A stretch of 64,000 nucleotides of DNA from Microbacterium sp. USTB-Y (GTDB taxonomy: Bacteria; Actinomycetota; Actinomycetes; Actinomycetales; Microbacteriaceae): contig NZ_JAGMTU010000002.1 in NCBI RefSeq assembly GCF_023703415.1, positions 310,001-374,000 of the forward strand. Reading direction: 5' to 3'. The stretch's first letter is position 1, and the number at the start of each line of letters is the position of its first letter. The notes beneath the pieces are model-generated. The model had not been told where the DNA came from and made no database searches. It saw only the letters and a list, made by a program, of their open reading frames with translations. Both the position numbers and the translations under genes were made by a program. This document shows positions 52,461 to 64,000 of the stretch, piece by piece.

Positions 52461-53732
52461 TCACCGGAGCACGCCGAGCCAGCCGTGCTCGCTCCTTCTC
52501 GCGCCGCCGTCGAGCTCCAGGATGCCGAGGAGCGCTTCGACCCGGTCCTCGCTCAGCCCGCTGCGCTGCGCGAGCTCGCTGCGGCTGCGCGCCGCGCGGG
52601 CGTTGAGCGCGTCGGCGAGTCGGACCAGGTCCGGGTCCTCCTGCATGATCGGCGGCCCGGCCCGATCCACTCCGAGCAGTTCACGGACGTCGGCGACCGA
52701 CGTGACGCACCGCGCGTCGTAATCCCGCAGCAGACGGTGGCACCCCGCGGAGGTCGTCGAGGTGATCGGTCCCGGCACCGCACCGAGCGGCCTGCCGAGC
52801 TCGCCGGCGTGGCCGGCCGTGTTCAGCGAGCCGCTCCGACCACCTGCCTCGACGACGACGGTCGCCCGGGCCAGCGCACTGATCACACGATTGCGCGCGA
52901 GGAACCGCCATTTCGTGGGCGCCGTGCCGCACGGCACCTCACTCACGAGCGCCCCGCTCGCGACGATCCGCTCGAACAGCTGAGCGTGGCCGCTCGGGTA
53001 GGGCCGATCCACCCCGCCGGCGAGTACCGCCACCGTGCGACCGCCGGCTCGGAGCGCCGCGCGGTGCGCCGTGCCGTCGATGCCGTACGCGCCGCCGGAG
53101 AACACCACGAATCCCTCCCCGGCGAGCTCGCCGGCGAGCCCGCCCGCGACATGCTCGCCGTAGCTCGAGGAAGCACGAGCGCCCACGATCGCGACACCGA
53201 CCTCGGAGAGCGCCGCGGGATCCCCCCGGAGCCAGAGCGCACGGGGCGCGTGCGCTCCGAGGTCCGCCAGAGCGACCGGCCATTCCGCGTCCCGGGGCAG
53301 CAGCAGCCGTGCCCCGATCCGTGCCGCGGTCCGCAACGCCCCCCGGTGGGGCTCGACGGCGAGGCGGGGCGCCCAGCGCCGGCGCGCATCGCGCAATGCC
53401 GCGGCGGCGGGCCGCTCCCCGGCGACATCGCCCTCCGGGTCGTCCCGTCCTCCGTGCGATCCGCCGAACGCGACCTCCAGTGCCTCGGTCGGTCCCATCG
53501 CTTCGACGAGCGCCCCGGCCACGCCGTCCCCCGGTTCGACGAGCAGACTCCAGATCACGCTGTCCCGAACCGCGGGATCCGCCGCATCGGGACGGATCCT
53601 GGTCATCTCGGCGAGGAGACCCGGCTCATCGCGCAACGTGCGCAGCCGGCGGCGCAGCTCGGCCGGGCCGGGCGTCGCCCCGTCGTGCGGCTCATCGGCA
53701 GCGGATCGACCACCACGTGCGGCCGGACTCAC
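52461..53732 (-). CDS. dprA: DNA-processing protein DprA
   Basis: A 423-residue protein that loads RecA onto incoming single strands in transformation. The Rossmann-like core has V-A-I-V-G-A-R-A-S-S-S-Y-G near residue 190, F-S-G-G-A-Y-G-I-D-G-T-A-H near 218, and V-V-E-A-G-G-R-S-G-S-L-N-T-A near 300. A C-terminal winged helix ('RSELAQRSGLSEDRVEALLGILELDG') is present. The GTG at 53732 overlaps the comM stop (GTGA). It appears intact although its partner comM is broken. Confidence 0.94.
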   Translation of the reverse strand: MSPAARGGRSAADEPHDGATPGPAELRRRLRTLRDEPGLLAEMTRIRPDAADPAVRDSVIWSLLVEPGDGVAGALVEAMGPTEALEVAFGGSHGGRDDPEGDVAGERPAAAALRDARRRWAPRLAVEPHRGALRTAARIGARLLLPRDAEWPVALADLGAHAPRALWLRGDPAALSEVGVAIVGARASSSYGEHVAGGLAGELAGEGFVVFSGGAYGIDGTAHRAALRAGGRTVAVLAGGVDRPYPSGHAQLFERIVASGALVSEVPCGTAPTKWRFLARNRVISALARATVVVEAGGRSGSLNTAGHAGELGRPLGAVPGPITSTTSAGCHRLLRDYDARCVTSVADVRELLGVDRAGPPIMQEDPDLVRLADALNARAARSRSELAQRSGLSEDRVEALLGILELDGGARRSEHGWLGVLR

Positions 53733-54220
53733 GTCGTCGCCCCCTTCTTCAGGTACAGCGCCCGCCCGATGTGGGCGAGAGTGGGAGCGGCCGCACCGGC
53801 GAGGTCCGCGATCGACCACGCGAGCCGCAGCACGCGGTCGTAGCCGCGGAGCGTCAGCGCCCCGCGCTGCAGAGCCCGATCCAGCGGAGTCCGGACCTCG
53901 GCGGGGAGACGGAACTCCCCCTGTCGCAGCCAGGTGCCCGGCGCGTGCGCATTGAGCCTCCAGGGGGTGTCCCGCCAGCGCCGCGCGGCGCGGGCCCTCG
54001 CCTCCTCGACCCGCGCACGCGCCTGTGCGGTCGACAGCGCGCCGCTCGACGACGCCGCGACCGCCGCGGCCGATACCCGGGCGACGCCCACCTCGATGTC
54101 GAGCCGGTCGCGGATCGGTCCCGACAGCCGTGCGGCGTACCGCCGGATCGTGGAAGGCGGGCAGATGCACTCCTCGCCGACGACACCGAAGGAACCGCAC
54201 GGGCACGGGTTCGTCGCCAG
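53729..54220 (-). pseudogene. comM: comM/yifB (Mg-chelatase-like AAA+), interrupted 3' part
   Basis: The last ~163 codons of a YifB/ComM protein, which is normally about 500 residues. It opens at L-A-T-N-P-C-P-C-G, a motif from the middle-late AAA+ core, followed by the C-P-P Cys region, Y-A-A-R-L-S-G-P-I-R-D-R-L-D-I and the C-terminal Mg_chelatase_C domain. The residues before L-A-T no longer match ComM from base 54,221 on: they read K-Y-V-Q-K rather than the expected F-Q-L-V-type sequence. The 5' ~340 codons must lie beyond the right end of the island. ComM is a branch-migration helicase for transformation; the gene is inactive here. Confidence 0.85.
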
Positions 54221-54284
54221 TTTTTGGACGTACTTCACGGCGTGTCCAGTGTTCGACGCCCGCCAACCCGGATTCGCTTGCCCT

Positions 54285-55760
54285 ATGGAACTTTCATCTT
54301 CGGCGGCCTCAGGACGCTGGCGTCAGTTTGGCCACGATCCATCTCTGTTCCGTTCTCACGCCGTCAGCTCCGGACCGAAGACCACACAAGTACTCGATCG
54401 AGCGCTCCCTTCAATCCCGCGTGATACTCCTTACCTGGTCTCCCCGAAGTTTGAGTACGACGTTGAGCTGAACGCGTTCTTCCACTCGGCGGATATGTTG
54501 GGCTCGGCGATGTCGACTCGCAGGGGATATGCCAGCGATCTCCTTGCCTTTTTTAACTTTCTTCATGTCAACCGAGGGGGAAAAGACTGGAGAACCGCGA
54601 CGAGCGACGATCATGAGGCGTACTTCGCGTGGAGACGTGAAGACCCCGCAGGACCGCGAGTCGCGGCCTCAACGTGGGATCGGGAGGTGGCTGCCACCAA
54701 TCGGTTCTTCAATTGGCAAGTACGCCGAGGGGTCCTTTCCGAGAATCCCATCCCCCAGCGACGACGTCGCGCTCATCGTCAGCGCCGAGGCGGTGGCGAT
54801 TCTCGCGAGACGACACCAGCCACGCGCTCTCACGGATCCGGGCGTACCAGGGTGGACTGGCTGCCAGCATCCTCCTACCGGCGGTGGCGCGACATCGGGC
54901 TTCGCGGTTACGGAACAGACGGACGCCGTGACGACGGATTCAGGGGACGTTGGGCGACGCGAAACGCCACGTTCGCGGACATGATGGTCCGAACAGGACT
55001 CCGCCTCTCCGAACTGTCGAACCTCTTCGAATCCGAGCTGCCAACTCTTGTCCAGCTCAACGGTTTCCATCGGTTCTACCTACCTAGAGTCATCGCCAAG
55101 GGCAGTTCTGAGCGCTGGGTCTACGTGCCTTCGACCGTTCTGCGCGCGGTCCGCGAGTACGTCGAGACTGATCGGCGAGAAGTGATCGAACTCGCACGAT
55201 CGGCCGGTCGATACCGGCTTACGCCGGACAGCGTGATTCTGGAACCTGACGGGCGACATGCCCGACTGGTTGGATCATCCCAGCGAATCCCGTTTGGCTT
55301 GCTGTCACTCGAGGAGCGACGGCGAACGTTCGTCGAAGGCCGTGACGGAGTCGCGCCAGCATCTCTGTGGCTTTCAGAGGCTGGCGAACCGATGTCGGTC
55401 TCGACGTGGAAACACATCTTCCGGCAGGCGAACATCCGATGTCAGCGGAACTCACTCGCCCTGTCGGCGAGTCCGCACACGCTGCGACACTCGTTTGCAG
55501 TCATCACTCTGGAACACCTTCAACGGGGGCATATTGCGGCGTTGCGCTCGGCGACTCCCGAGCAACGGGGCTACTACGTTCGGGTTTTCGGGGATCCTCT
55601 CGACTGGGTCCGTCGCCTGTTGGGGCACCGAAGCGTTGAGACGACGCAGAAGTACCTGCACGCTTTGGCAGACCTGGAGATGAGCACACGTCTGGCACTC
55701 ATTCCTGAGGAGTGGGAAGACCCTCGCGATCCGACCCTCATTGCTGCAGGCCTCTCATGA
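54285..55760 (+). CDS. tyrosine recombinase, TnpA-like
   Basis: A 491-residue integrase. The N-terminal SAM-like domain has S-T-R-R-G-Y-A-S-D-L-L-A-F-F-N-F-L (~76-92). The catalytic domain has the first Arg in R-T-G-L-R-L-S-E-L (~250), H-T-L-R-H-S-F (~408) and L-L-G-H-R-S-V-E-T-T-Q-K-Y-L-H (~451-465), so Arg-His-Arg-His-Tyr is complete. Between residues ~150 and 215 is a basic Arg-rich insert. The start is uncertain: ATG 54285 has no good Shine-Dalgarno, and an in-frame GTG lies at 54249. Its stop overlaps the next start (ATGA). It is the best candidate for the strand-cutting enzyme. Confidence 0.88.
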   Translation: MELSSSAASGRWRQFGHDPSLFRSHAVSSGPKTTQVLDRALPSIPRDTPYLVSPKFEYDVELNAFFHSADMLGSAMSTRRGYASDLLAFFNFLHVNRGGKDWRTATSDDHEAYFAWRREDPAGPRVAASTWDREVAATNRFFNWQVRRGVLSENPIPQRRRRAHRQRRGGGDSRETTPATRSHGSGRTRVDWLPASSYRRWRDIGLRGYGTDGRRDDGFRGRWATRNATFADMMVRTGLRLSELSNLFESELPTLVQLNGFHRFYLPRVIAKGSSERWVYVPSTVLRAVREYVETDRREVIELARSAGRYRLTPDSVILEPDGRHARLVGSSQRIPFGLLSLEERRRTFVEGRDGVAPASLWLSEAGEPMSVSTWKHIFRQANIRCQRNSLALSASPHTLRHSFAVITLEHLQRGHIAALRSATPEQRGYYVRVFGDPLDWVRRLLGHRSVETTQKYLHALADLEMSTRLALIPEEWEDPRDPTLIAAGLS

Positions 55761-57565
55761 GGCCGAGCGATCGTCGCGGATCGACTGGAGTTGGCCGAAC
55801 CGCCCCTATGCCGTCGGGCCACTACGCCCGGACGGCGAGAACGCCAGCCACAGTCCCGTTTGTCGTGCAGTTCGTGGGAGAAGACGGCCGACAGAAGAGC
55901 TTCGACATCGGAACCCTGCCCTTGCCAGGTTGGCACGATGCTCTCGCACAAGGTTGGGCGCGTCGTATCGGTCCAGCGGGGACTTTGAGGACGCTTTCGT
56001 CGGCAATGGGCGGATGGGCCATCCTGTCTCGCTTCATGCACCAGCTGTCGTCATCGATTGACCCCCCACAAACGCCAGGCGACCTACGGCCGCGGCATGT
56101 CAACGCGCTCAGGCAAAGCCTGGAGGCGAGTTCGAATCGTCAAACGGTTGGGAAACATCTCCATGTCATGGCCGTTCTGTTGGACCTCCCACCACTCTCA
56201 GGCCAGATTGACGAGAGCTTGCGGGCGAAGTTCCGTCACCGGACGCGGAACACACGTGCGAGCGCGCCGGGCTACTCCGACCGGGAGCTACGGTCCATCG
56301 TGGCAGCGGCACGAGGAGACGTCACCGCAATCCGCACCCGCCTTCGCATGCCCCCACCAGTTGGAGACCGATCAGCGATCGCAGAGGTCCGTCGAACCGG
56401 TAGCGTCACGGCAGATGGGGTGCCCTTTCTTGACCGGATGGCGCACCGTCGGCGGTTGGCTCAGCAGGTCTTCATAACGCGCCGCGATCTGATACCGATC
56501 CTCGCGTTGTTCGTCTACACGACAGGGTGGAACGTGGAAACCATCAAGGAACTGACCACCGCCCATCGGGTGATCGAAGGGGTCGCTGTCGAAGTGAGCC
56601 TGATCAAGCGGCGCCGGGGGCCAGGCAAGTGGCATGGCTCGGCCACCTGGGAGATCGGAAAACCTGGTCAAGAGCTTCGTACGCCTGGCGGGCTATACCT
56701 GTTGTTGCTCGACCTGATGGCGCCGGCGCGGGATCTGCTCGACGACAGCCCTTACTGGGCTGTCTGGCTCGGTGCAGGAAGGTTCGGGCCGGACCGGGTA
56801 GGAAACCCATTCGAGGGCGCCCTGAACACGGAGGTCAGCAATCGGGATTGGATCGCTGGCCACAATCTTCGGAGCGACGAGCACCGGGTCGAAGGTGGAA
56901 CGGCCGGTGACACGAGATCTGAGCGGACCGATCTGCGGTTGAGCTTTCCGCGGTTAAAGAAGAGCGTCGATGTGCGCCGGACACGTGCCGTTGGTGGGCA
57001 TCTTCCGTCGGCAACGCGGTCCAACACCATCCCCGTGCTGTTCCGCAACTATTTGGCCGGTGACCCATCGACCATCGACTGGGCTGAAGACATCATGTCT
57101 GATGCAGTCGCGGACATGGAGAAGTCTGCATTTGACGCCCATCGGAAGGCGCTTAGCGCTAGCGGTCGCACGCGCCTCGCGGTTCACCCGAAGGGGACTT
57201 CCGCTGTCCCCACGAACCGGCCGCTCACGGCGGAGGAGACGGGTTGGTCGTCATGCCAAGATCACGCTCACCACCCGTTGACCGGGCGGCGCTGCGCTCA
57301 GTCGTTCCTTGACTGCTTTCATTGTGCAAACAGCGTCGTGACTGCCGAACATCTCCCTGGCCTGCTCGCTCTACTGGATGCGCTTGAGCAACGCCGTGAG
57401 CACATGTCGACCGAGAGTTGGTGGCGTCGCTATGGCCCGGTCTGGACGGCGATTCGTCACGATGTGCTCCCTCAGTTCACCGACGGCGAAGTTCACCATG
57501 CGGAAGAGCAAAAGCGAGACGACTATTTGCTCGACCTGGTCGAGCCTCGATGGGAGCGTCCCTGA
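55757..57565 (+). CDS. TnpB-like protein, degenerate recombinase
   Basis: A 602-residue protein, near the length of Tn554 TnpB (about 630). The position where a tyrosine recombinase has T-G-x-R-x-S-E reads T-T-G-W-N-V-E-T-I-K-E-L (~255-266), with Asn in place of Arg, and I see no H-x-x-R or terminal Tyr motif. Near the C-terminus C-Q-D-H-A-H-H and R-R-C-A-Q-S-F-L-D-C-F-H-C could bind zinc. It may be a DNA-binding partner rather than a catalyst (inference). Coupled by overlaps on both sides (ATGA and TGATG). Confidence 0.75.
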   Translation: MRPSDRRGSTGVGRTAPMPSGHYARTARTPATVPFVVQFVGEDGRQKSFDIGTLPLPGWHDALAQGWARRIGPAGTLRTLSSAMGGWAILSRFMHQLSSSIDPPQTPGDLRPRHVNALRQSLEASSNRQTVGKHLHVMAVLLDLPPLSGQIDESLRAKFRHRTRNTRASAPGYSDRELRSIVAAARGDVTAIRTRLRMPPPVGDRSAIAEVRRTGSVTADGVPFLDRMAHRRRLAQQVFITRRDLIPILALFVYTTGWNVETIKELTTAHRVIEGVAVEVSLIKRRRGPGKWHGSATWEIGKPGQELRTPGGLYLLLLDLMAPARDLLDDSPYWAVWLGAGRFGPDRVGNPFEGALNTEVSNRDWIAGHNLRSDEHRVEGGTAGDTRSERTDLRLSFPRLKKSVDVRRTRAVGGHLPSATRSNTIPVLFRNYLAGDPSTIDWAEDIMSDAVADMEKSAFDAHRKALSASGRTRLAVHPKGTSAVPTNRPLTAEETGWSSCQDHAHHPLTGRRCAQSFLDCFHCANSVVTAEHLPGLLALLDALEQRREHMSTESWWRRYGPVWTAIRHDVLPQFTDGEVHHAEEQKRDDYLLDLVEPRWERP

Positions 57566-59646
57566 TGCGCGCCGAGGCGACGGCTGAGATCGCCGCCCGC
57601 GATCCATACGTTCTTCACGGACGACCTCTGGTCGAGGGCGTCACGCTCTCGGACACGTCACGCTTTAGCGACGACGTGTGGCTGGTAGGACCAGCGGTCT
57701 TGCAGCGAAGCGGTCGTTCTCAGAGCCTCCACTTTGCGAACTTCCCCGCGGAGCATCGAGCAGACGCGAAGCTGCTTTGCTATGCGGGTTTGTCTGGGGA
57801 GATCCCTGAGGACGAGGATCGGCCGATGGTCGCGACAGTCCTTTCTATGCAAGTGCGTATCCGCCATCTCTTCGTCTGGATGAGCAAGTACCGGCCAGGT
57901 GCGGCGATTGCAGATCTGCGCCCCGCTGATCTGGACGCGTATCAGACCTACCTTGCAACCACCGTCCGATCAGCATGGCAACGATATGCACTTCGTACCG
58001 CCGTCGCATTTCTGTGGCGATATCGAACGACCCTCGGAGCACGAGCGCTGAGCTTCGATCCACGCCTTACTGAGTACTGGTCAGCGGAGCCCTATCCCGG
58101 TAAGCGCACAGAGAATGCGACCTCACGTATTCCGGAGGCTGTTCATGCGCCACTGCTTGTCTGGTCGATCCGGTTCGTTGATGACTTCGCTGATGACATC
58201 CTCAATGGAATCGACCTTTGGCGAGTGCGCAGGAGCCAGGGAACCGCCGGTGACGGACGCCCGGGGCTCACATGGGGGCAAGCTCCGGCACTTATCCGTG
58301 ATTACCTGTCGCGTGCTCGCGTCGCCGGCAGACCGCTGCCAGGCAAAGACGGCCGCGTGAACCTCTCCGCCATCGGGCGAGCGGTGGGGTGCGCTCCCCT
58401 CGCGCTTGAGCCTTATCGGGCCGAACTCGCCGAGTTGGCGGTCGAACTCGGCGTATCCGAGTACGCCGACCTCAACCAAACGATCTCTGGACGACTTGAT
58501 GGCGAACCCTGGATCGAAGGCTTCCGCACAAACCCAGTCGAGCGCGATTCTCTCTCGACTATGTCGCTCCTTCTCCAAACGGCGTGCTACATCGTCATCG
58601 CTTTCCTCTCGGGAATGCGCGACAGCGAGATCAAACACCTTCGAACCGGTGCGTCGAAGATCGTCGCGGATTCTCAGGGCACCCCCATCCGCTGGGTAGT
58701 CCACAGCCTGGCCTTCAAAGGAGAAGAAGAAGCGGCAGGCGTGCCCGCCACATGGGTTGTCGGTGCGCCGGCGGCGCGCGCAATCGCAGTTCTTGAACGG
58801 CTTGCGTTGGTCTCGGGGGCATCGAGTCCATGGCTCTTCGCCCCGTTGCTGACGGGGCCTGGACGGGGTTCGGGTGCCCGCAACACCAATGAGGCTCTCA
58901 CGGTTGGCGGCACGATCCACGCGCTCAACCGGTTCCGGGACTGGATCACCCGTTACTGCGAGGAACGCGGTCGAAGCGACGGCATACCCGATCACAACGG
59001 CCAGCCTTGGCGACTGACGACGCGACAATTTCGTCGCACGCTAGCTTGGTACATTGCCCGCAGGCCGGGCGGTGCGATCGCAGGCGCCATCGCCTACCGA
59101 CACCACAGCATCCAAATGTTCGAAGGATACGCGGGCACAAGCGACTCTGGATTCAGAGCCGAAGTAGAGGCCGAGGCGGCACTTGCTCGCGGTCAGCACC
59201 TATTGGAGATGACGGAACGCAACGAGCACCTTCGCCTTGGCGGGCCAGCCGCTGGCGAAGCCTACGCTCGATTGACGGAGTTCAGCTCGAACGGAGCCTT
59301 CGCCGGAACGGTGCAGACCGATCCGCGGCGCTTCCTCCGGCTTCTCAAGGCGCGGGGGCCCGAGGTGTATCCCGGTCGCTACGTGACATGCACGTTTGAT
59401 GCGTCGAAGGCTCAATGTCACAACTCAGCTTCGGGTCCCGACATCCAGACGTGTCAGCCGATGACGTGCCGCAACGTCGCTCTCACAGCCGACAATCGCG
59501 ACGCGTGGCAGGCCGAGGTGGCGCTCATCGATGCAGACCTTGCCCAACGACCAGAGCTCCCACCTGTCCTCGCCGACCGGCTGCGGCAGAGGCGAGCTCG
59601 TATCCTCGAGCTGGTGAATGGAGAGTCCAATGTCTCGCCGGATTGA
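57565..59646 (+). CDS. large tyrosine-recombinase-type protein
   Basis: A 693-residue protein. The catalytic Arg is present in L-S-G-M-R-D-S-E-I-K-H-L (~352). The box usually H-x-x-R reads T-T-R-Q-F-R-R-T (~490), so Arg is kept and the first His is replaced by Arg. A-Y-R-H-H-S-I-Q-M-F-E-G-Y provides His and Tyr (~510). The tail has C-T-F-D-A-S-K-A-Q-C, then C-Q-P-M-T-C-R-N-V, a four-Cys set likely to bind zinc and typical of actinobacterial elements of this type. The ATG at 57565 has GGGAG 8 nt upstream. Its 3' end overlaps the small tnpC-like gene by 17 bases. Confidence 0.8.
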   Translation: MRAEATAEIAARDPYVLHGRPLVEGVTLSDTSRFSDDVWLVGPAVLQRSGRSQSLHFANFPAEHRADAKLLCYAGLSGEIPEDEDRPMVATVLSMQVRIRHLFVWMSKYRPGAAIADLRPADLDAYQTYLATTVRSAWQRYALRTAVAFLWRYRTTLGARALSFDPRLTEYWSAEPYPGKRTENATSRIPEAVHAPLLVWSIRFVDDFADDILNGIDLWRVRRSQGTAGDGRPGLTWGQAPALIRDYLSRARVAGRPLPGKDGRVNLSAIGRAVGCAPLALEPYRAELAELAVELGVSEYADLNQTISGRLDGEPWIEGFRTNPVERDSLSTMSLLLQTACYIVIAFLSGMRDSEIKHLRTGASKIVADSQGTPIRWVVHSLAFKGEEEAAGVPATWVVGAPAARAIAVLERLALVSGASSPWLFAPLLTGPGRGSGARNTNEALTVGGTIHALNRFRDWITRYCEERGRSDGIPDHNGQPWRLTTRQFRRTLAWYIARRPGGAIAGAIAYRHHSIQMFEGYAGTSDSGFRAEVEAEAALARGQHLLEMTERNEHLRLGGPAAGEAYARLTEFSSNGAFAGTVQTDPRRFLRLLKARGPEVYPGRYVTCTFDASKAQCHNSASGPDIQTCQPMTCRNVALTADNRDAWQAEVALIDADLAQRPELPPVLADRLRQRRARILELVNGESNVSPD

Positions 59647-60019
59647 GCTGCCCACGAGGCAACAAGTTGAGGCAACGGTGCGTGAGTTGTCCGCCACGGG
59701 ATCAGCGCCAGTTCTCACGGCAAAGGAGCTTGCGCGGCATCTGGGTCTCACCAACGGGACGTTCTGGCGTCACTTCCCCGACATCGCGCAGTCGGTCGCG
59801 GATGGTCGCCGCCGGCTACTGCGCGATGAAACGAAACCGGCGCTACCCCCCACTCCCCAGAAGGTGGTTCCCGAGAGGCAATTGCGGCTTCAGATCGAAG
59901 AACTCAAGCGTCAAATTTCGGTAGCTGCGGCGCAGATCCAAAGACTCACGTTGGAGAACGAGGCGCTCCGTCGCCAGTTGGAAGCCGAGAACACGATCAT
60001 TCGGATTCGCGATCAATGA
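59630..60019 (+). CDS. TnpC-like HTH/coiled-coil protein (DUF6262-type)
   Basis: A 129-residue protein close in size to Tn554 TnpC (125). Residues ~25-60 hold a TetR-like HTH: L-T-A-K-E-L-A-R-H-L-G-L-T-N-G-T-F-W-R-H-F. Residues ~85-125 form a coiled coil with heptad leucines (L-R-L-Q-I-E-E-L-K-R-Q-I, L-T-L-E-N-E-A-L-R-R-Q-L). In Tn554 TnpC influences efficiency and orientation. The ATG at 59630 has GGAGAG 4-5 nt upstream. Its stop overlaps the HAD-like start (ATGA). Confidence 0.78.
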   Translation: MSRRIELPTRQQVEATVRELSATGSAPVLTAKELARHLGLTNGTFWRHFPDIAQSVADGRRRLLRDETKPALPPTPQKVVPERQLRLQIEELKRQISVAAAQIQRLTLENEALRRQLEAENTIIRIRDQ

Positions 60020-60459
60020 CGGACTTGGCCCCCGCGACCAACTCGCGAGTCCTCATGGTCGTCGACATCGACGGAACCATCGCACCGATCCTGCAGGAGC
60101 ATGAGCAGGTGCGTTGGTTGATCGAAGGACCGCTTCAGGGAATACTGGACGGCCAGTACGTGGCCTGGTGTGGAGCACCCCGCAGCGGATCGCGAATGCA
60201 GTCGCTTATGTCCTTCGCCGTAAGACGGAACCCTGCCGCAATCGTTTGGGCGGACGACCGCGCCCCGGCCAACGCGCAGCGCCGCACACGCGTCATCACG
60301 GGTCAACCAGCACTGGTGGTGCGACCCGACAAGTTCACTGGCCTGACCCTGGACCACGCGGACCGCATCAAGCACTTTGTGGAGGGGGCTCGCACGTTGA
60401 GCATTCCCGGGCTGTCAGGCCGCGCCGCCGCGCTTGGTGCTCGCATGGACCTCGCATAG
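60016..60459 (+). CDS. HAD-like protein coupled to the recombinase operon
   Basis: A 147-residue protein. Motif I V-V-D-I-D-G-T-I-A-P-I at ~15-25 is a HAD phospho-acceptor. The later pattern W-C-G-A-P-R-S-G-S, I-V-W-A-D-D-R-A-P and G-L-T-L-D-H-A-D-R-I is like the small HAD domains found in nucleic-acid-repair/mobile contexts (the Swiss-army-knife HAD group). No cap domain fits in this length. It starts inside the tnpC-like stop and is therefore translated with it. Its 3' end overlaps the convergent gene by 45 bases. Role unknown. Confidence 0.65.
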   Translation: MTDLAPATNSRVLMVVDIDGTIAPILQEHEQVRWLIEGPLQGILDGQYVAWCGAPRSGSRMQSLMSFAVRRNPAAIVWADDRAPANAQRRTRVITGQPALVVRPDKFTGLTLDHADRIKHFVEGARTLSIPGLSGRAAALGARMDLA

Positions 60460-60789
60460 CGTCCAGACCCACATCCCGATTGTGTAGGTGCGGGCGGGAG
60501 CCGCGCATTCTTCGCAGGTTCTCGTACTCTCCCATTCCGCCGCCATGATCGCGTCGCGAAAGGCATCGTCGTAGTGGTACGGGTAATCAGAAGGCTGCGC
60601 GTAGAAGCTCAACGACCCGAACTTCGACTTCACCTGGTGGATGAGGTATCCCGGCGCGATCGCCGCCAAGCGTCGGTCCAACTGGACCAGAAGTGGGTAC
60701 CAACCCGGCCCGACATCAACAGTCGGTGACCAGCCGGGTGCGATCCTCGCGATGAGGCCGCGTATCTCCTCAGGCTCCTGCGTCGTCAT
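60415..60789 (-). CDS. conserved phage/island protein of unknown function
   Basis: A 124-residue protein. Conserved features are G-P-G-W-Y-P-L-L near residue 27, H-Q-V-K-S-K-F-G-S-L-S-F-Y-A near 48-61, and C-E-E-C-A-A-P-A with W-T-L-C near the end, probably a zinc-binding set C-x-x-C...C. The K-F-G-x-L-x-F-Y motif with a terminal Cys pair recurs in proteins of phages and islands, with no known role. ATG at 60789 with GGAGAAGGAG 8-10 nt upstream; longer readings are rejected. Confidence 0.7.
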   Translation of the reverse strand: MTTQEPEEIRGLIARIAPGWSPTVDVGPGWYPLLVQLDRRLAAIAPGYLIHQVKSKFGSLSFYAQPSDYPYHYDDAFRDAIMAAEWESTRTCEECAAPARTYTIGMWVWTLCEVHASTKRGGAA

Positions 60790-60817
60790 CGAATACTTCT
60801 CCTTCTCCGGAAGCGAT

Positions 60818-61342
60818 TTAGGTGTCAAGTTCGGCGAGCGGCGTATCGAGCAGCCGTGCGTACGACTCCATGAGTCGCGTATCAATTGCCGGGCGCGGAA
60901 TCGTCTCTCGCAGTCGGGACAGCTGGCGAGTCCGCGACAGCTCTCGGAACGCTCTCCCCACGCGGAGGCTGCGAGTAACGTCACGGTCCCAATTGATCAT
61001 GCTTCGGCGGCGCCAATCGATCGCGACGTGACCTCGGAAGCCCGATATCGCTCGACGGCGTTCGACGAACTCGAGACCGTCCGGGAAAGGTCCCGGCATT
61101 CCGGCAGTGTCAGGAAGCAGGTAGGTGAAGAGCTCCGCGAACGTCGGTCCGCGCCCAGTCCGACGGCGGACCTGTGCAACAAAGATCCCTGCCCCAAGCG
61201 CCCAGGGGGCGGCCGTATCGGCGCCGGTGAAGTCCTCGAAGACGTAGACCCATTCGGCGGGAGGGGGTACCGAGATTCCTCTCCACCAGATCGGGTGAGG
61301 GTTGCGTTCCACAGGCGTCGTCACAATCACGGTCGCACGCAT
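60818..61342 (-). CDS. uncharacterised island protein
   Basis: A 174-residue protein, 28 bases upstream of the previous gene and on the same strand, so probably one operon. It has an N-terminal 'HPIWWRGISVP' turn and the segment 'F-A-E-L-F-T-Y-L-L-P' near the middle, then 'R-R-A-I-S-G-F-R-G-H-V-A-I-D-W' and a basic Arg-rich tail. No known domain is recognised. The ATG at 61342 is chosen; 61369 adds nine residues with no better ribosome binding site. Confidence 0.6.
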   Translation of the reverse strand: MRATVIVTTPVERNPHPIWWRGISVPPPAEWVYVFEDFTGADTAAPWALGAGIFVAQVRRRTGRGPTFAELFTYLLPDTAGMPGPFPDGLEFVERRRAISGFRGHVAIDWRRRSMINWDRDVTRSLRVGRAFRELSRTRQLSRLRETIPRPAIDTRLMESYARLLDTPLAELDT

Positions 61343-61433
61343 GAGCCAGTCCCGAGCTGCGACCGACATGCATCAGGCGGGCAGCACACGTGCAGGAGAC
61401 AGCAGACAGTGTCCGCGAAGGTGACGATTGTTT

Positions 61434-61475
61434 CGTATGGCCTCCGAAATTATGCCATATACGTAAGGCCATACG
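61434..61475. promoter_or_regulatory. palindromic operator candidate upstream of XRE gene
   Basis: Perfect 10-base arms CGTATGGCCT (61434-61443) and AGGCCATACG (61466-61475) with a 22-nt AT-rich spacer containing TATGCCATATACGTA. It lies between the divergent island genes, about 30 bases before the XRE start. Confidence 0.5.
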
Positions 61476-61503
61476 GGTGTGCACGGTTCCCCACGCTGGG
61501 TTG

Positions 61504-61788
61504 GTGCCCTTCCGAAACGACGAGACCGAGCTGCAGTGGCGGGCGTACTCGCAGCGTCTCGCTACTTCGCTGCGCTCGGCGCGCGAGCGGGCTGGGTTGA
61601 GCCAGGAGGACGTCGCCTACCGCTCAGGTCTCACGCGGTACACCTATCAAAAGTACGAGAAGGGCGAGTCTCGTCCTGGTACGCCGTCCAATCCGACGCT
61701 GCGTACGATCCTCGCTATTTCGCAGGTTCTCGGCACACCTTTGTCATCGCTCATCCCGGATGACGCCCCTGATCTTCGCACGCGTTGA
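61504..61788 (+). CDS. XRE-family HTH regulator
   Basis: A small protein of about 94 residues. The HTH is R-L-A-T-S-L-R-S-A-R-E-R-A-G-L-S-Q-E-D-V-A then S-G-L-T-R-Y-T-Y-Q-K-Y-E-K-G, a Cro/C1 (XRE) fold, with a loop and helix ending L-G-T-P-L-S-S-L-I-P. The start is uncertain: I chose the GTG at 61504; a longer open frame reaches 61390 but lacks family similarity. It is divergent from the 60818-61342 gene with an operator-like palindrome between them, so it may repress both. Confidence 0.75.
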   Translation: MPFRNDETELQWRAYSQRLATSLRSARERAGLSQEDVAYRSGLTRYTYQKYEKGESRPGTPSNPTLRTILAISQVLGTPLSSLIPDDAPDLRTR

Positions 61789-61955
61789 CCGAGGGACAAT
61801 CGCGGTGCTCGGTATCGCCTCGACTTGTTGCGGAAACGCTCACGAACGATCGGAGCAGTGTTGTCCGGAACTTTCGACGAGATCGATACTGACGGCCTGC
61901 CGCGCGGCAAGGGACTGCCCCTCCTGCGGATAACCTCTCGAACCGGGACACACCG

Positions 61956-62201
61956 ATGAAAACGCTCTCAATAACGGTGTTCTGCCCCGCGCGTCGCCAC
62001 GTGGTCTTCACGCACGCAACCGCCTGCGAGCGACTCGACCTGCTCGGCGACGAAGTCTGCCACAGGATCGGCTTCTTTAGGACCGACCTAGTGAGCCCAG
62101 CCGCGACCGAAGATGCGCTTAGCCCGCCAACTTCGTCCGCTCCACCCGTAGTCGGCTCCGCATGCACCCACCGTGCGAGGGATCAGGCAGGCACGTTCTA
62201 A
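61956..62201 (+). CDS. possible small ORF
   Basis: An 81-residue open frame with four cysteines and no recognised domain. No Shine-Dalgarno precedes the ATG. The surrounding 61,789-62,197 shows no better gene on either strand; the minus-strand frame 61751-62167 is long but looks random. I rate this as doubtful. Confidence 0.2.
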   Translation: MKTLSITVFCPARRHVVFTHATACERLDLLGDEVCHRIGFFRTDLVSPAATEDALSPPTSSAPPVVGSACTHRARDQAGTF

Positions 62202-62920
62202 GGATCCGGGGGCTCGAAGAGGTTCCCTGATGAGGGTGCGAGAAAGGTCCTTGCCGGCGTGACCACCACCGGAATGATGTGCGAGTCAGGATAATCAGCG
62301 CGCCTTGAGTCCACGTCCCACTGATCCAGCGGGACGGGAACCAGCTGCGGGAGTACGCCGCTATCCCAGAGTTCCTGAAGGTCACCCCCGTCGTTAAGCA
62401 CGGTAAGAAGCTCAACTTTCGCCTTTTCGATCTCATGAAGCAGCAGGTCTTTCACAACGAGAGTGAGCTCATGAAATTGCTGGATCGCCTCCAAGGAAAA
62501 GGAGACATGCGCGGTGATCGCTAAGGCCTGCGACGCACGTGTGGCTCCCGCCGACTCGTCGCGCTCGAGATTCGCTACAGCGTAGGACGGTGTGAGCGTG
62601 CTCTCGGAATGGGCGACGGTGCGGTTACGTAGCCGCTTGAGTGCGTAATGTTCGTCCGCGTGCGAATCGGGCACGTCAATGATCGTCTCAAGATTCGGCC
62701 GGACGTTTGATGATGTGAAGCACCGCCCGTACGAAACCGTCGCGTCGGAGACGAGCGGCCGAACAAGATTCTGCTCCCACGTCTCTTCGGACTCGATCAG
62801 GTGGAGCGCGATCGTGAACCCGTTCAGCGCTTCGGCGAGATCCGCGTTGAAGCCTGCGAGCTGCGCGAGCCGGATCGCAGCCGGAGAGCTGGGTGCGATG
62901 ACCTGCTTCATCTCGGACAT
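62198..62920 (-). CDS. uncharacterised partner of STAND-like gene
   Basis: A 240-residue, mostly helical, hydrophilic protein. No signal peptide, membrane helix or nuclease motif is visible. R-L-R-N-R-T-V-A-H-S-E near residue 93 resembles the R-x-x-x-x-H core of small HEPN/MAE_28990-like helical domains, but the match is weak. The ATG lies 9 bases after the stop of the STAND-like gene on the same strand, so they form an operon. The tail 'LFEPPDP' is poorly conserved looking. Function unknown; a partner in defence is suggested by context only. Confidence 0.65.
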   Translation of the reverse strand: MSEMKQVIAPSSPAAIRLAQLAGFNADLAEALNGFTIALHLIESEETWEQNLVRPLVSDATVSYGRCFTSSNVRPNLETIIDVPDSHADEHYALKRLRNRTVAHSESTLTPSYAVANLERDESAGATRASQALAITAHVSFSLEAIQQFHELTLVVKDLLLHEIEKAKVELLTVLNDGGDLQELWDSGVLPQLVPVPLDQWDVDSRRADYPDSHIIPVVVTPARTFLAPSSGNLFEPPDP

Positions 62921-62929
62921 GAACCAACG

Positions 62930-64000
62930 CTAGCTGAACGCTTGTCCGCGAAGCGTTCGGGTCGCGTACTGCCGGAGGAGACTGACGCCGTAGTGGGCCG
63001 TGTCGGGTTGAGTATGGCTGATCGCGTTGATTGTGCGATCCAGCGCGGCCCGAGCTGGCGCCTGGTCAAGAGCTTGGAGAATTCCGACCGATGCGCCGGC
63101 GCCGCCACCAATGGTGTCGTTGAGTCGTTCCACTAGGACGAGTGCTTCAGGGATGTCGCCAGCGAATCGCACCAGCTGGCGGGCAAGCATCTGCGCGCGC
63201 GCTCGAGGAGTTTGCTCGGATGGCTTGACGTACTTCCTCCCTTCGGTCAGCGTGGTTCGAGCCTGTTTCGCGACTGGGCTCATGCCGTCCTTCCGGTCGC
63301 TGAGGTACTTGGTCGCGAGATTCGACAGGTTCTTGCGGCTGAGTTCGTGGAGCGCCTCAAGTGCGATCGCAGCTTCGCGGCCAGATTGCGTCAAAGCAAG
63401 ACTCACCAGGTCGGATAGGGCGCGTGGGAGCTCTGGCGCGGTTTCAGCGAACTGCGTCATGGCGCTACCCAGGAGAGCTCGCCTGACGTTGGGGAACTCC
63501 ACGCCGAGATTGTCGAGGTATAGGTCGGCGGCCAACGACGCTCCAAGAGTTGTCACCAAACTCTCTGCCACGGCCATGTCGTATTCCGTCGCGATCTTGA
63601 CTAACTCGTCGGTGAGGTGCTCCCTCCTCTTGACGAGTCTGCCCGCCGCGAGGAGCCAGGCGTTCCGCCAGTGGCTGGAAGGGGCAAGGTGTCGGAGGTT
63701 CGCGAGGATCGTATCGTCAGCCCCATCAGTCAAGGCGCGGGCAGCCATGTACTCCTGAAGGGACCGAACTTCGAACTCGAACTTGGCAGGGCGCCGAGAG
63801 ACGAGCATTACAACCCGCTCCGTAGATAGCCGGAGGAGCTTGTCCGCGATCGTGTCTGATTCTGCCTCATCAAATCCCGCGGCCTTCAGTCGACGGCGGA
63901 GAATCCGGCCGATCTCTGTCTTTGTCAGGACCGCATCTGACTTTCCGGGCTGCTCGGTACGCGCCTGCAGCTTGACGCCGGCTTGTTCGTGTAGGTGGTC
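62930..64000 (-). CDS. NACHT/STAND-like protein, C-terminal part
   Basis: An open frame of 356 codons that enters from the right window edge, so the 5' end and any ATPase domain lie outside. The stretch F-E-F-E-V-R-S-L-Q-E-Y-M-A-A-R-A-L (about residues 74-90 of the visible part), followed by S-S-H-W-R-N-A-W-L-L-A-A-G-R, is the conserved post-NTPase segment of NACHT-type STAND proteins. The rest is helical repeats, as in their sensor domains. Such proteins act as phage sensors (Avs) or regulators. The assignment rests on this motif alone; the P-loop is not seen. Confidence 0.7.
   Translation of the reverse strand, partial: DHLHEQAGVKLQARTEQPGKSDAVLTKTEIGRILRRRLKAAGFDEAESDTIADKLLRLSTERVVMLVSRRPAKFEFEVRSLQEYMAARALTDGADDTILANLRHLAPSSHWRNAWLLAAGRLVKRREHLTDELVKIATEYDMAVAESLVTTLGASLAADLYLDNLGVEFPNVRRALLGSAMTQFAETAPELPRALSDLVSLALTQSGREAAIALEALHELSRKNLSNLATKYLSDRKDGMSPVAKQARTTLTEGRKYVKPSEQTPRARAQMLARQLVRFAGDIPEALVLVERLNDTIGGGAGASVGILQALDQAPARAALDRTINAISHTQPDTAHYGVSLLRQYATRTLRGQAFS

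Follow-up and report, generated by a model that had tools for sequence, protein, structure and literature searches.

A 64,000-nucleotide stretch of Microbacterium sp. USTB-Y (contig NZ_JAGMTU010000002.1, positions 310,001 to 374,000; hereafter the window, in genome G000) carries a four-gene operon that we read, with a probability of roughly 70%, as the recombination operon of an actinobacterial SE-type integrative element inserted in comM and using a cleavage-dead recombinase as a structural subunit. All four genes lie on the + strand. ORF1 (54285-55760; 491 amino acids (aa); Pfam Phage_integrase, 4.1e-14) encodes an IntA-type tyrosine recombinase with a full R-K-H-R-H-Y set; ORF2 (55757-57565; 602 aa), a Tfp-type pseudo-recombinase with Asn at the place of the first catalytic arginine (Arg-I), the first catalytic histidine (His-II) lost and the tyrosine kept; ORF3 (57565-59646; 693 aa), a large IntB-type recombinase with Arg replacing His-II; and ORF4 (59618-60019), a Srap-type auxiliary protein with a helix-turn-helix (HTH) and a coiled coil. 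ORF1 and ORF2 overlap by ATGA (55757-55760) and ORF2 and ORF3 by TGATG (57563-57567), as an initial annotation made from the sequence had described; the 17-nt overlap that it gave between ORF3 and ORF4 holds for a start at ATG 59630 and becomes 29 nt from ATG 59618. The operon is genuine: relatives of ORF2 and ORF1 stand directly upstream of the ORF3 relative at 87 of 102 places with an ORF3 relative of at least 600 aa (script count), a neighbouring order that exceeds chance, and at least three of the 15 exceptions (L066, L104 and L109) do have both genes.

The initial annotation had assigned unequal catalytic sets to the three recombinases, and its reading of the residues was accurate throughout. 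ORF1 has R240, K272, H398, R401, H448 and Y457; ORF2 has Asn for the first Arg (N259, 56531..56533, + strand) and P398-x-x-K401 in place of H-x-x-R; and ORF3 has R352, K385, R487 instead of His (59023..59025, + strand), R490, H513 and Y522, with a four-Cys tail (C609, C618, C630 and C635; 59389..59469, + strand). What had gone unnoticed is that ORF2 keeps a tyrosine, Y432 (57050..57052, + strand), and has a four-Cys motif of its own (C500, C513, C520 and C523; 57254..57325, + strand). In an alignment of the ORF2 and ORF3 profiles, N259 pairs with R352, K284 with K385, K401 with R490 and Y432 with Y522.

Two sets of relatives were aligned, the first with 26 ORF1, 24 ORF2 and 27 ORF3 rows (frames shorter than 300 aa dropped) and the second with 51, 56 and 62 rows, respectively. 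The second came from a scan with one ORF3 peptide pattern of 84,980 species genomes, which gave 522 relatives. The best 80 of these were retained; the rows of the second set exclude short or low-scoring frames and any sequences sharing identical last 300 residues. Each of the six catalytic residues of ORF1 is kept in 51/51 rows of the second set and in 24-26 of 26 rows of the first. At the Arg-I position of ORF2, the second set has Asn in 54 and Glu in 2 of 56 rows and the first set Asn in 16, Glu in 5, Pro in 2 and one gap among 24. The residue aligned with Y432 is Tyr in 23/23 aligned rows of the first set and 56/56 of the second, in which the β-hairpin Lys is also kept in 56/56, the Arg-II place is Lys in 42 and Arg in 11 (3 gaps), and the four cysteines are Cys in 55-56 of 56 rows. 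The His-II place of ORF3 is Arg (35), Ser (19), Ala (4) or Gly (4) in the second set, with His in 0/62, and Arg (12), Ser (7), Pro (3), Thr (2), Lys (1) or Ala (1), with one gap and His in 0/26 aligned rows, in the first. Its Arg-I, Lys, Arg-II and second His are kept in 62/62 rows of the second set, its Tyr in 61/62 and its cysteines in 60-61 of 62.

Because the alignments of both sets show them, the substitutions in ORF2 and ORF3 are conserved traits. The initial annotation had weighed a designed role, with the ORF2 Asn and ORF3 Arg conserved across the family, against sporadic decay, and would have called this copy simply degenerate if most ORF2 homologues were intact; Arg-I was found in 0/23 and 0/56 aligned rows. 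Its expectation of one catalytic and one or two altered subunits was likewise borne out, with ORF1 fully equipped and the changes in ORF2 and ORF3 conserved. Decay could account for absent catalytic residues in a single genome, and a dead operon might therefore be imagined here, yet these substitutions are found again in 56 ORF2 and 62 ORF3 rows whose frames are open, and two identical copies in genome G121, described below, point to recent movement of a relative; we give this explanation almost no weight.

Neither ORF2 nor ORF3 matched a Pfam or NCBIfam family above cut-off, and a PHROGs search gave no match for either; the ORF2 sequence profile found nothing in PDB (E up to 1) and that of ORF3 a single weak core-binding match (E 0.031). 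The AlphaFold2 models had mean predicted local distance difference test values of 85.9 (ORF2) and 88.8 (ORF3). With the ORF2 model, the first 31 Foldseek matches were all tyrosine recombinases, although the best reached E 6.8e-3 and none 0.001 or below, and VIA-align gave a Z of 13.9 against the Tn1549 integrase (283 residues aligned, root-mean-square deviation 4.3). The best Foldseek match of the ORF3 model was Cre (E 1.4e-4); its TM-scores were low, and the match therefore holds at the domain level only. Judged by Pfam for ORF1 and by these predicted models for ORF2 and ORF3, the three are recombinase-fold proteins. ORF4 gave TetR-type HTH and coiled-coil matches, all sub-threshold.

Among the best 80 of the 522 ORF3 relatives, 78 are actinobacterial and 2 alphaproteobacterial by genome name, and 261 plasmid records matched ORF3 and 78 matched ORF2 at E 0.001. 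ORF4 relatives occur in 88 of the 97 loci with a long ORF3; none was detected in the other nine (L016, L017, L144, L145, L047, L059, L086, L120 and L136), some of which are cut short. The first four of these, the alphaproteobacterial loci of the set, show ORF1-ORF3 without a detectable fourth gene; a more distant alphaproteobacterial operon (L256) has a fourth gene that matches ORF4 at 92.5%.

The operon stands at the head of an island of 31,585 bp, which runs from 54222 past the window to G000:C2:395806. To its left lies the C-terminal part of comM (yifB; 53729..54221, - strand; NCBIfam TIGR00368, positions 342-491), cut off by the element and ending in the target's own hexamer (54216-54221; junction string verified). 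The left, ORF1-proximal end of the element, TTTTGGACGTAC...GTGTCCAGTG, occupies 54222..54251 (+ strand). Past the island come six foreign bases, which on the comM coding strand read TGCACA, followed by the N-terminal part of comM, from G000:C2:395813. In the window genome, as in G235, G087, G774 and G776-G783, the break in comM falls at profile position 343; in G775, G784 and G096 comM is whole. Among 198 Microbacterium genomes, 178 have comM above cut-off, and it is split at 343 in G000, G860 and G974, near 306 in seven and near 79 in two, with others split elsewhere or fragmented. Two of the insertions near 306 (L273 and L274, in G801 and G813) have no relative of ORF1-3; they contain frames with what we take to be a serine-recombinase motif, which a Pfam scan of one L273 frame did not confirm. 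comM may be a target of unrelated kinds of element.

Including that of the window, 17 elements of the present family lie at the same comM codon, 14 of them belonging to the best 80 loci of the genome scan; ten have ORF1 beside the C part of comM and seven are reversed (L042, L080, L109, L116, L117, L134 and L138). L069 could be read on the C side only and L116 on the N side only, and the halves of L066 lie on two contigs. The two ends of the element agree in their outermost 4-5 bases, next to a 6-bp spacer; the first four are alike in 12 of 14 elements and five in 8 of 14. The inverted match of the 30-nt ends was better than that of shuffles in the window element (p=0.007) and in L109 (p<0.01). 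Relatives also sit elsewhere: read by eye, that of L048 (G654) lies in an apparent dprA (LAERGWVVVSGA) near an intact comM, and that of L091 in an apparent intB of another element (RQFRRTLA).

The junctions indicate how the target is treated. The hexamer on the comM C side spells the expected Val-Leu/Met-Ala codons in 14/14 two-sided junctions, as does the corresponding hexamer at 32 of 33 intact comM sites, and the hexamer on the N side fits comM codons in 0/15 junctions. Read in this way, the sequences show that the target retains all its bases, with its own 6 bp at the C side of comM and a foreign 6 bp at the N side. An attB divided over attL and attR, with a 6-bp spacer, is one mark by which SEs are recognised, and it is present at all 14. 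Two sources for the foreign hexamer were considered and rejected, namely another comM in the same register, which 0/15 fit, and a fixed part of the element, since in G121 it differs between two copies whose sequences agree fully over 11,450 bp. These copies lie in two NPP motifs, presumably of methylases (read by eye), and, whichever way the orientation is read, the hexamer resident at one copy, CCGCCC, is found as the foreign hexamer at the other. Seven of the 15 N-side hexamers fit N-GT-N-C/T-T, the pattern of the umuC site of L067, which occurs at 0.42% of positions in intact comM loci. The pattern was noticed after the hexamers had been seen, and four of the seven are identical and perhaps not independent; the umuC reading is based on these seven hexamers, one actinobacterial insertion (L067) and two Pseudomonas plasmid insertions (L255 and L257). 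Pfam identified umuC in L067 and L257, and L255 and L257 split it in its VVLSNNDG motif. As a shared target, umuC counts in favour of the SE-type reading; it has been reported as a hotspot for tmexCD-toprJ elements, which have two integrase genes and two hypothetical ones (PMC10654056). Elements in L084/L085 and in L110/L126, from differently named genera, are more than 99.8% identical over more than 15 kb, either through recent transfer or because records are mislabelled; L084 is possibly mislabelled, as its flanks resemble those of L085, and comparison of the two pairs gave no clear donor.

The same junctions bear on whether the element is instead an ordinary cut-and-paste island with three recombinases, in which, as with the coupling sequences of Tn916-like islands, both strands are exchanged, replication resolves the 6-bp heteroduplex and the donor site is restored. 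Non-identical 6-bp spacers are also known for Tn916-like islands. GInts, the other four-gene group, are described as leaving a restored, detectable empty site in some strains (PMC5385486). Random resolution, however, predicts the target hexamer on either side, and it lies on the comM C side in 14/14 verified junctions; the coexistence of two identical copies in G121 also argues against this explanation. We therefore consider cut-and-paste movement unlikely. No empty site for the G121 copies was found in the two related genomes examined, one of the two queries lying inside the element.

Assignment to the SE type is based on the order and homology of the genes. SEs are described as having an intA-tfp-intB-srap operon, in which Tfp is said by the SE authors to be without the R-H-R-Y residues (PMC10214605), and the plasmid pAQU1 carries an SE that they list (PMC10214605). 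We took the four genes of the pAQU1 SE (L259) from the annotation beside blaGMA-1, and compared them with operons from plasmids of Klebsiella, Pseudomonas, Cupriavidus and Novosphingobium: eight four-gene operons, or nine with L257, L254 (a near copy of L253) being excluded from the nine-operon profiles. In 8/8 of these proteobacterial operons genes 1, 2 and 3 match ORF1, ORF2 and ORF3 by position, gene 2 has Asn at the Arg-I place in 8/8, and the fourth gene matches ORF4 in 7/8 (92.5-98.5%). The pAQU1 genes match the nine-operon profiles by position at 97.3, 97.6, 98.7 and 95.5%, with other positions at 3.6% or below, and the nine operons match the window family by position at 100, 100, 100 and 98.9%. 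In the pAQU1 Tfp, the Arg-I place reads TGQN, and both the Tyr and the cysteines are retained. By way of these intermediate profiles, the comparison shows at the sequence level that IntA, Tfp, IntB and Srap have their counterparts in ORF1, ORF2, ORF3 and ORF4, in that order. In SEs both IntA and IntB carry R-H-R-Y; ORF1 does so (51/51), ORF3 is without His-II (62/62), long terminal repeats find little support in most elements, and we therefore call the element SE-type rather than filing it as a strict SE.

Several observations weigh against this reading. It rests on sequence, in which strand bias, a circle and the absence of an empty site are not visible. If the intermediate profiles are left out, matches between the pAQU1 genes and the window family stand at 80.9, 26.6, 95.0 and 67.4%, and direct BLASTP gave 5e-4 (Tfp) and 0.002 (IntB) in single comparisons. 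Between the nine operons and the window family, gene 2 also matches ORF3 off position at 97.2% (E 4.7e-11, against 5e-40 on position) and gene 3 matches ORF1 and ORF2 at 88-89%, sizeable values of the kind to be expected within a single recombinase fold. In the eight proteobacterial operons, the Tyr of gene 2 is aligned in 6/8 (one gap, one Ala) and its Lys kept in 4/8, and His-II, absent from ORF3, is present in 7/8 third genes and in pAQU1 IntB; the fourth gene of L062 has no ORF4 match (0.8%). SEs are described with imperfect terminal repeats of 13-19 bp (PMC10214605), and the 30-nt ends are no better than shuffles in 12 of our 14 elements (p>0.2). The published SE rule places the target hexamer at the IntA end and the foreign hexamer at the opposite end (PMC10214605). 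Among the comM elements read on both sides, it is followed by the 8 forward ones and reversed in the 6 of the other orientation; counting L116, read on one side only, seven reversed elements have the foreign hexamer at the ORF1 end, and the side of the hexamer therefore follows the target, not the element. Finally, TGCACA, the foreign hexamer of the window element, does not fit comM or umuC, and the match between the G121 hexamers has few free bases, owing to the NPP codons, with a chance of about 1 in 8 by our own estimate.

Studies of Cre and Flp offer analogies for what such subunits might do. In both enzymes, chemistry is almost completely lost when a charge-neutral residue takes the place of Arg-I (PMC4499138), but Arg-I mutants still bind and synapse, with synaptic complexes of Flpe(R191A) at about 77% of those of Flpe (PMC4381057). 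Among the His-II mutants, Flpe(H305A) cleaves and is blocked in recombination, and Cre(H289A) is recombination-competent and tends to begin exchange in reverse order (PMC4381057). We propose that ORF1 would perform the main strand cleavage; that ORF2 would bind and synapse a terminus and be unable to cleave, because Arg-I replacement almost abolishes chemistry in Cre and Flp; that ORF3, lacking His-II, is probably able to cleave, though perhaps not to complete an exchange; and that ORF4 would act as a TnpC/Srap-like accessory. Such a complex would exchange one strand and give a circle carrying 6 bp of the donor site, and the circle would insert at a new site, where the donor 6 bp would remain as a footprint. 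A dead partner at the half-site would be the simplest cause for exchange of one strand. It is a more doubtful proposal that Tfp/ORF2, disarmed at Arg-I, occupies one half-site per terminus and so limits exchange to a single strand, the conserved Asn thereby making a tyrosine recombinase system a strand-biased copy-out transposition machine in more than one phylum. In a bolder form, Tfp, with its Tyr and Arg/Lys-II kept and Arg-I gone, might free the covalently bound strand by hydrolysis; the SE authors state that a step freeing this strand must exist (PMC10214605).

The cargo of the island, which within the window occupies 60016..64000, includes genes of a CBASS-type defence system, for a cyclase, an E2-like protein and a 1TM effector (L004:2968-5053; PADLOC E 3.1e-146, 2e-53 and 6.8e-50), and for CopC, CopD/CtaG, ResB, cation efflux and ArsR-type proteins (L004:5476-18837), functions of metal handling and cytochrome biogenesis. 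Resistance is among the cargo that SEs and related elements carry, and an apparent DNA-cutting enzyme whose active site is disarmed in the relatives examined gives a hint of how these poorly understood elements may copy themselves. In the view of the family given here, the second protein is a conserved pseudo-recombinase, with Asn for Arg-I and a Tyr that is mostly kept, and not merely a protein without catalytic residues, and the 6-bp footprint may preserve a record of the last donor site. Compact actinobacterial elements of about 7.4 kb (L080, L109 and L117) would allow the role of Tfp to be tested. The SE authors, who cautioned that distant members might escape PSI-BLAST, saw SEs in Gammaproteobacteria only (PMC10214605); the present family extends the host range of the four-gene plan to Actinobacteria and Alphaproteobacteria. 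Our literature search, outside which most subscription papers lay, found no SE-type element reported in Actinobacteria or at comM, and novelty is unproven.

Comparison with other known systems places the element closest to SEs. The initial annotation had seen in the operon a joining of the plans of Tn554 and of recombinase in trio (RIT) elements. Such a fusion is not needed, as the SE four-gene plan was already known and matches in order, and the RIT description does not fit. RITs are described as three-gene elements with 34-bp inverted repeats, whose recombinases, 315-410 aa long, have all retained the catalytic Tyr (PMC10214605); they share with the window operon three recombinase genes in a row, whereas the window proteins have 491, 602 and 693 aa and are joined by a fourth gene. 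Tn554, which leaves a 6-bp footprint (PMC10214605) and has two-recombinase relatives described in Actinobacteria (PMC3414803), resembles it in combining a large and a normal recombinase, often with a TnpC-like partner. Unlike the window operon with its three recombinase-fold proteins, however, it has two recombinase genes and no counterpart of Tfp.

A further parallel is offered by GInt (ginABCD), in which three recombinase-like genes and a small accessory one likewise stand at one end of a cargo-bearing island that prefers few target genes, and in which GinC is described as without the first Arg (PMC5385486). That the window element is a GInt rather than of the SE type is nevertheless very unlikely: the altered subunit is the third gene product in GInt, where the first two recombinases are complete and GinC is also termed a protein without the catalytic tyrosine (PMC10214605), whereas in the window the second protein is altered with its Tyr kept and the third keeps Arg-I and Tyr, a distinction that for GInt relies on published descriptions. 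With SEs, represented by pAQU1, the window family shares four genes in the same order, homologous by position via intermediates, a 6-bp spacer and a second protein with Asn at Arg-I and a Cys motif. It differs in occurring in Actinobacteria (and Alphaproteobacteria) rather than Gammaproteobacteria, in its comM target entered in both orientations, in an ORF3 without His-II and in ends that agree over only 4 (12/14) or 5 (8/14) terminal bases.

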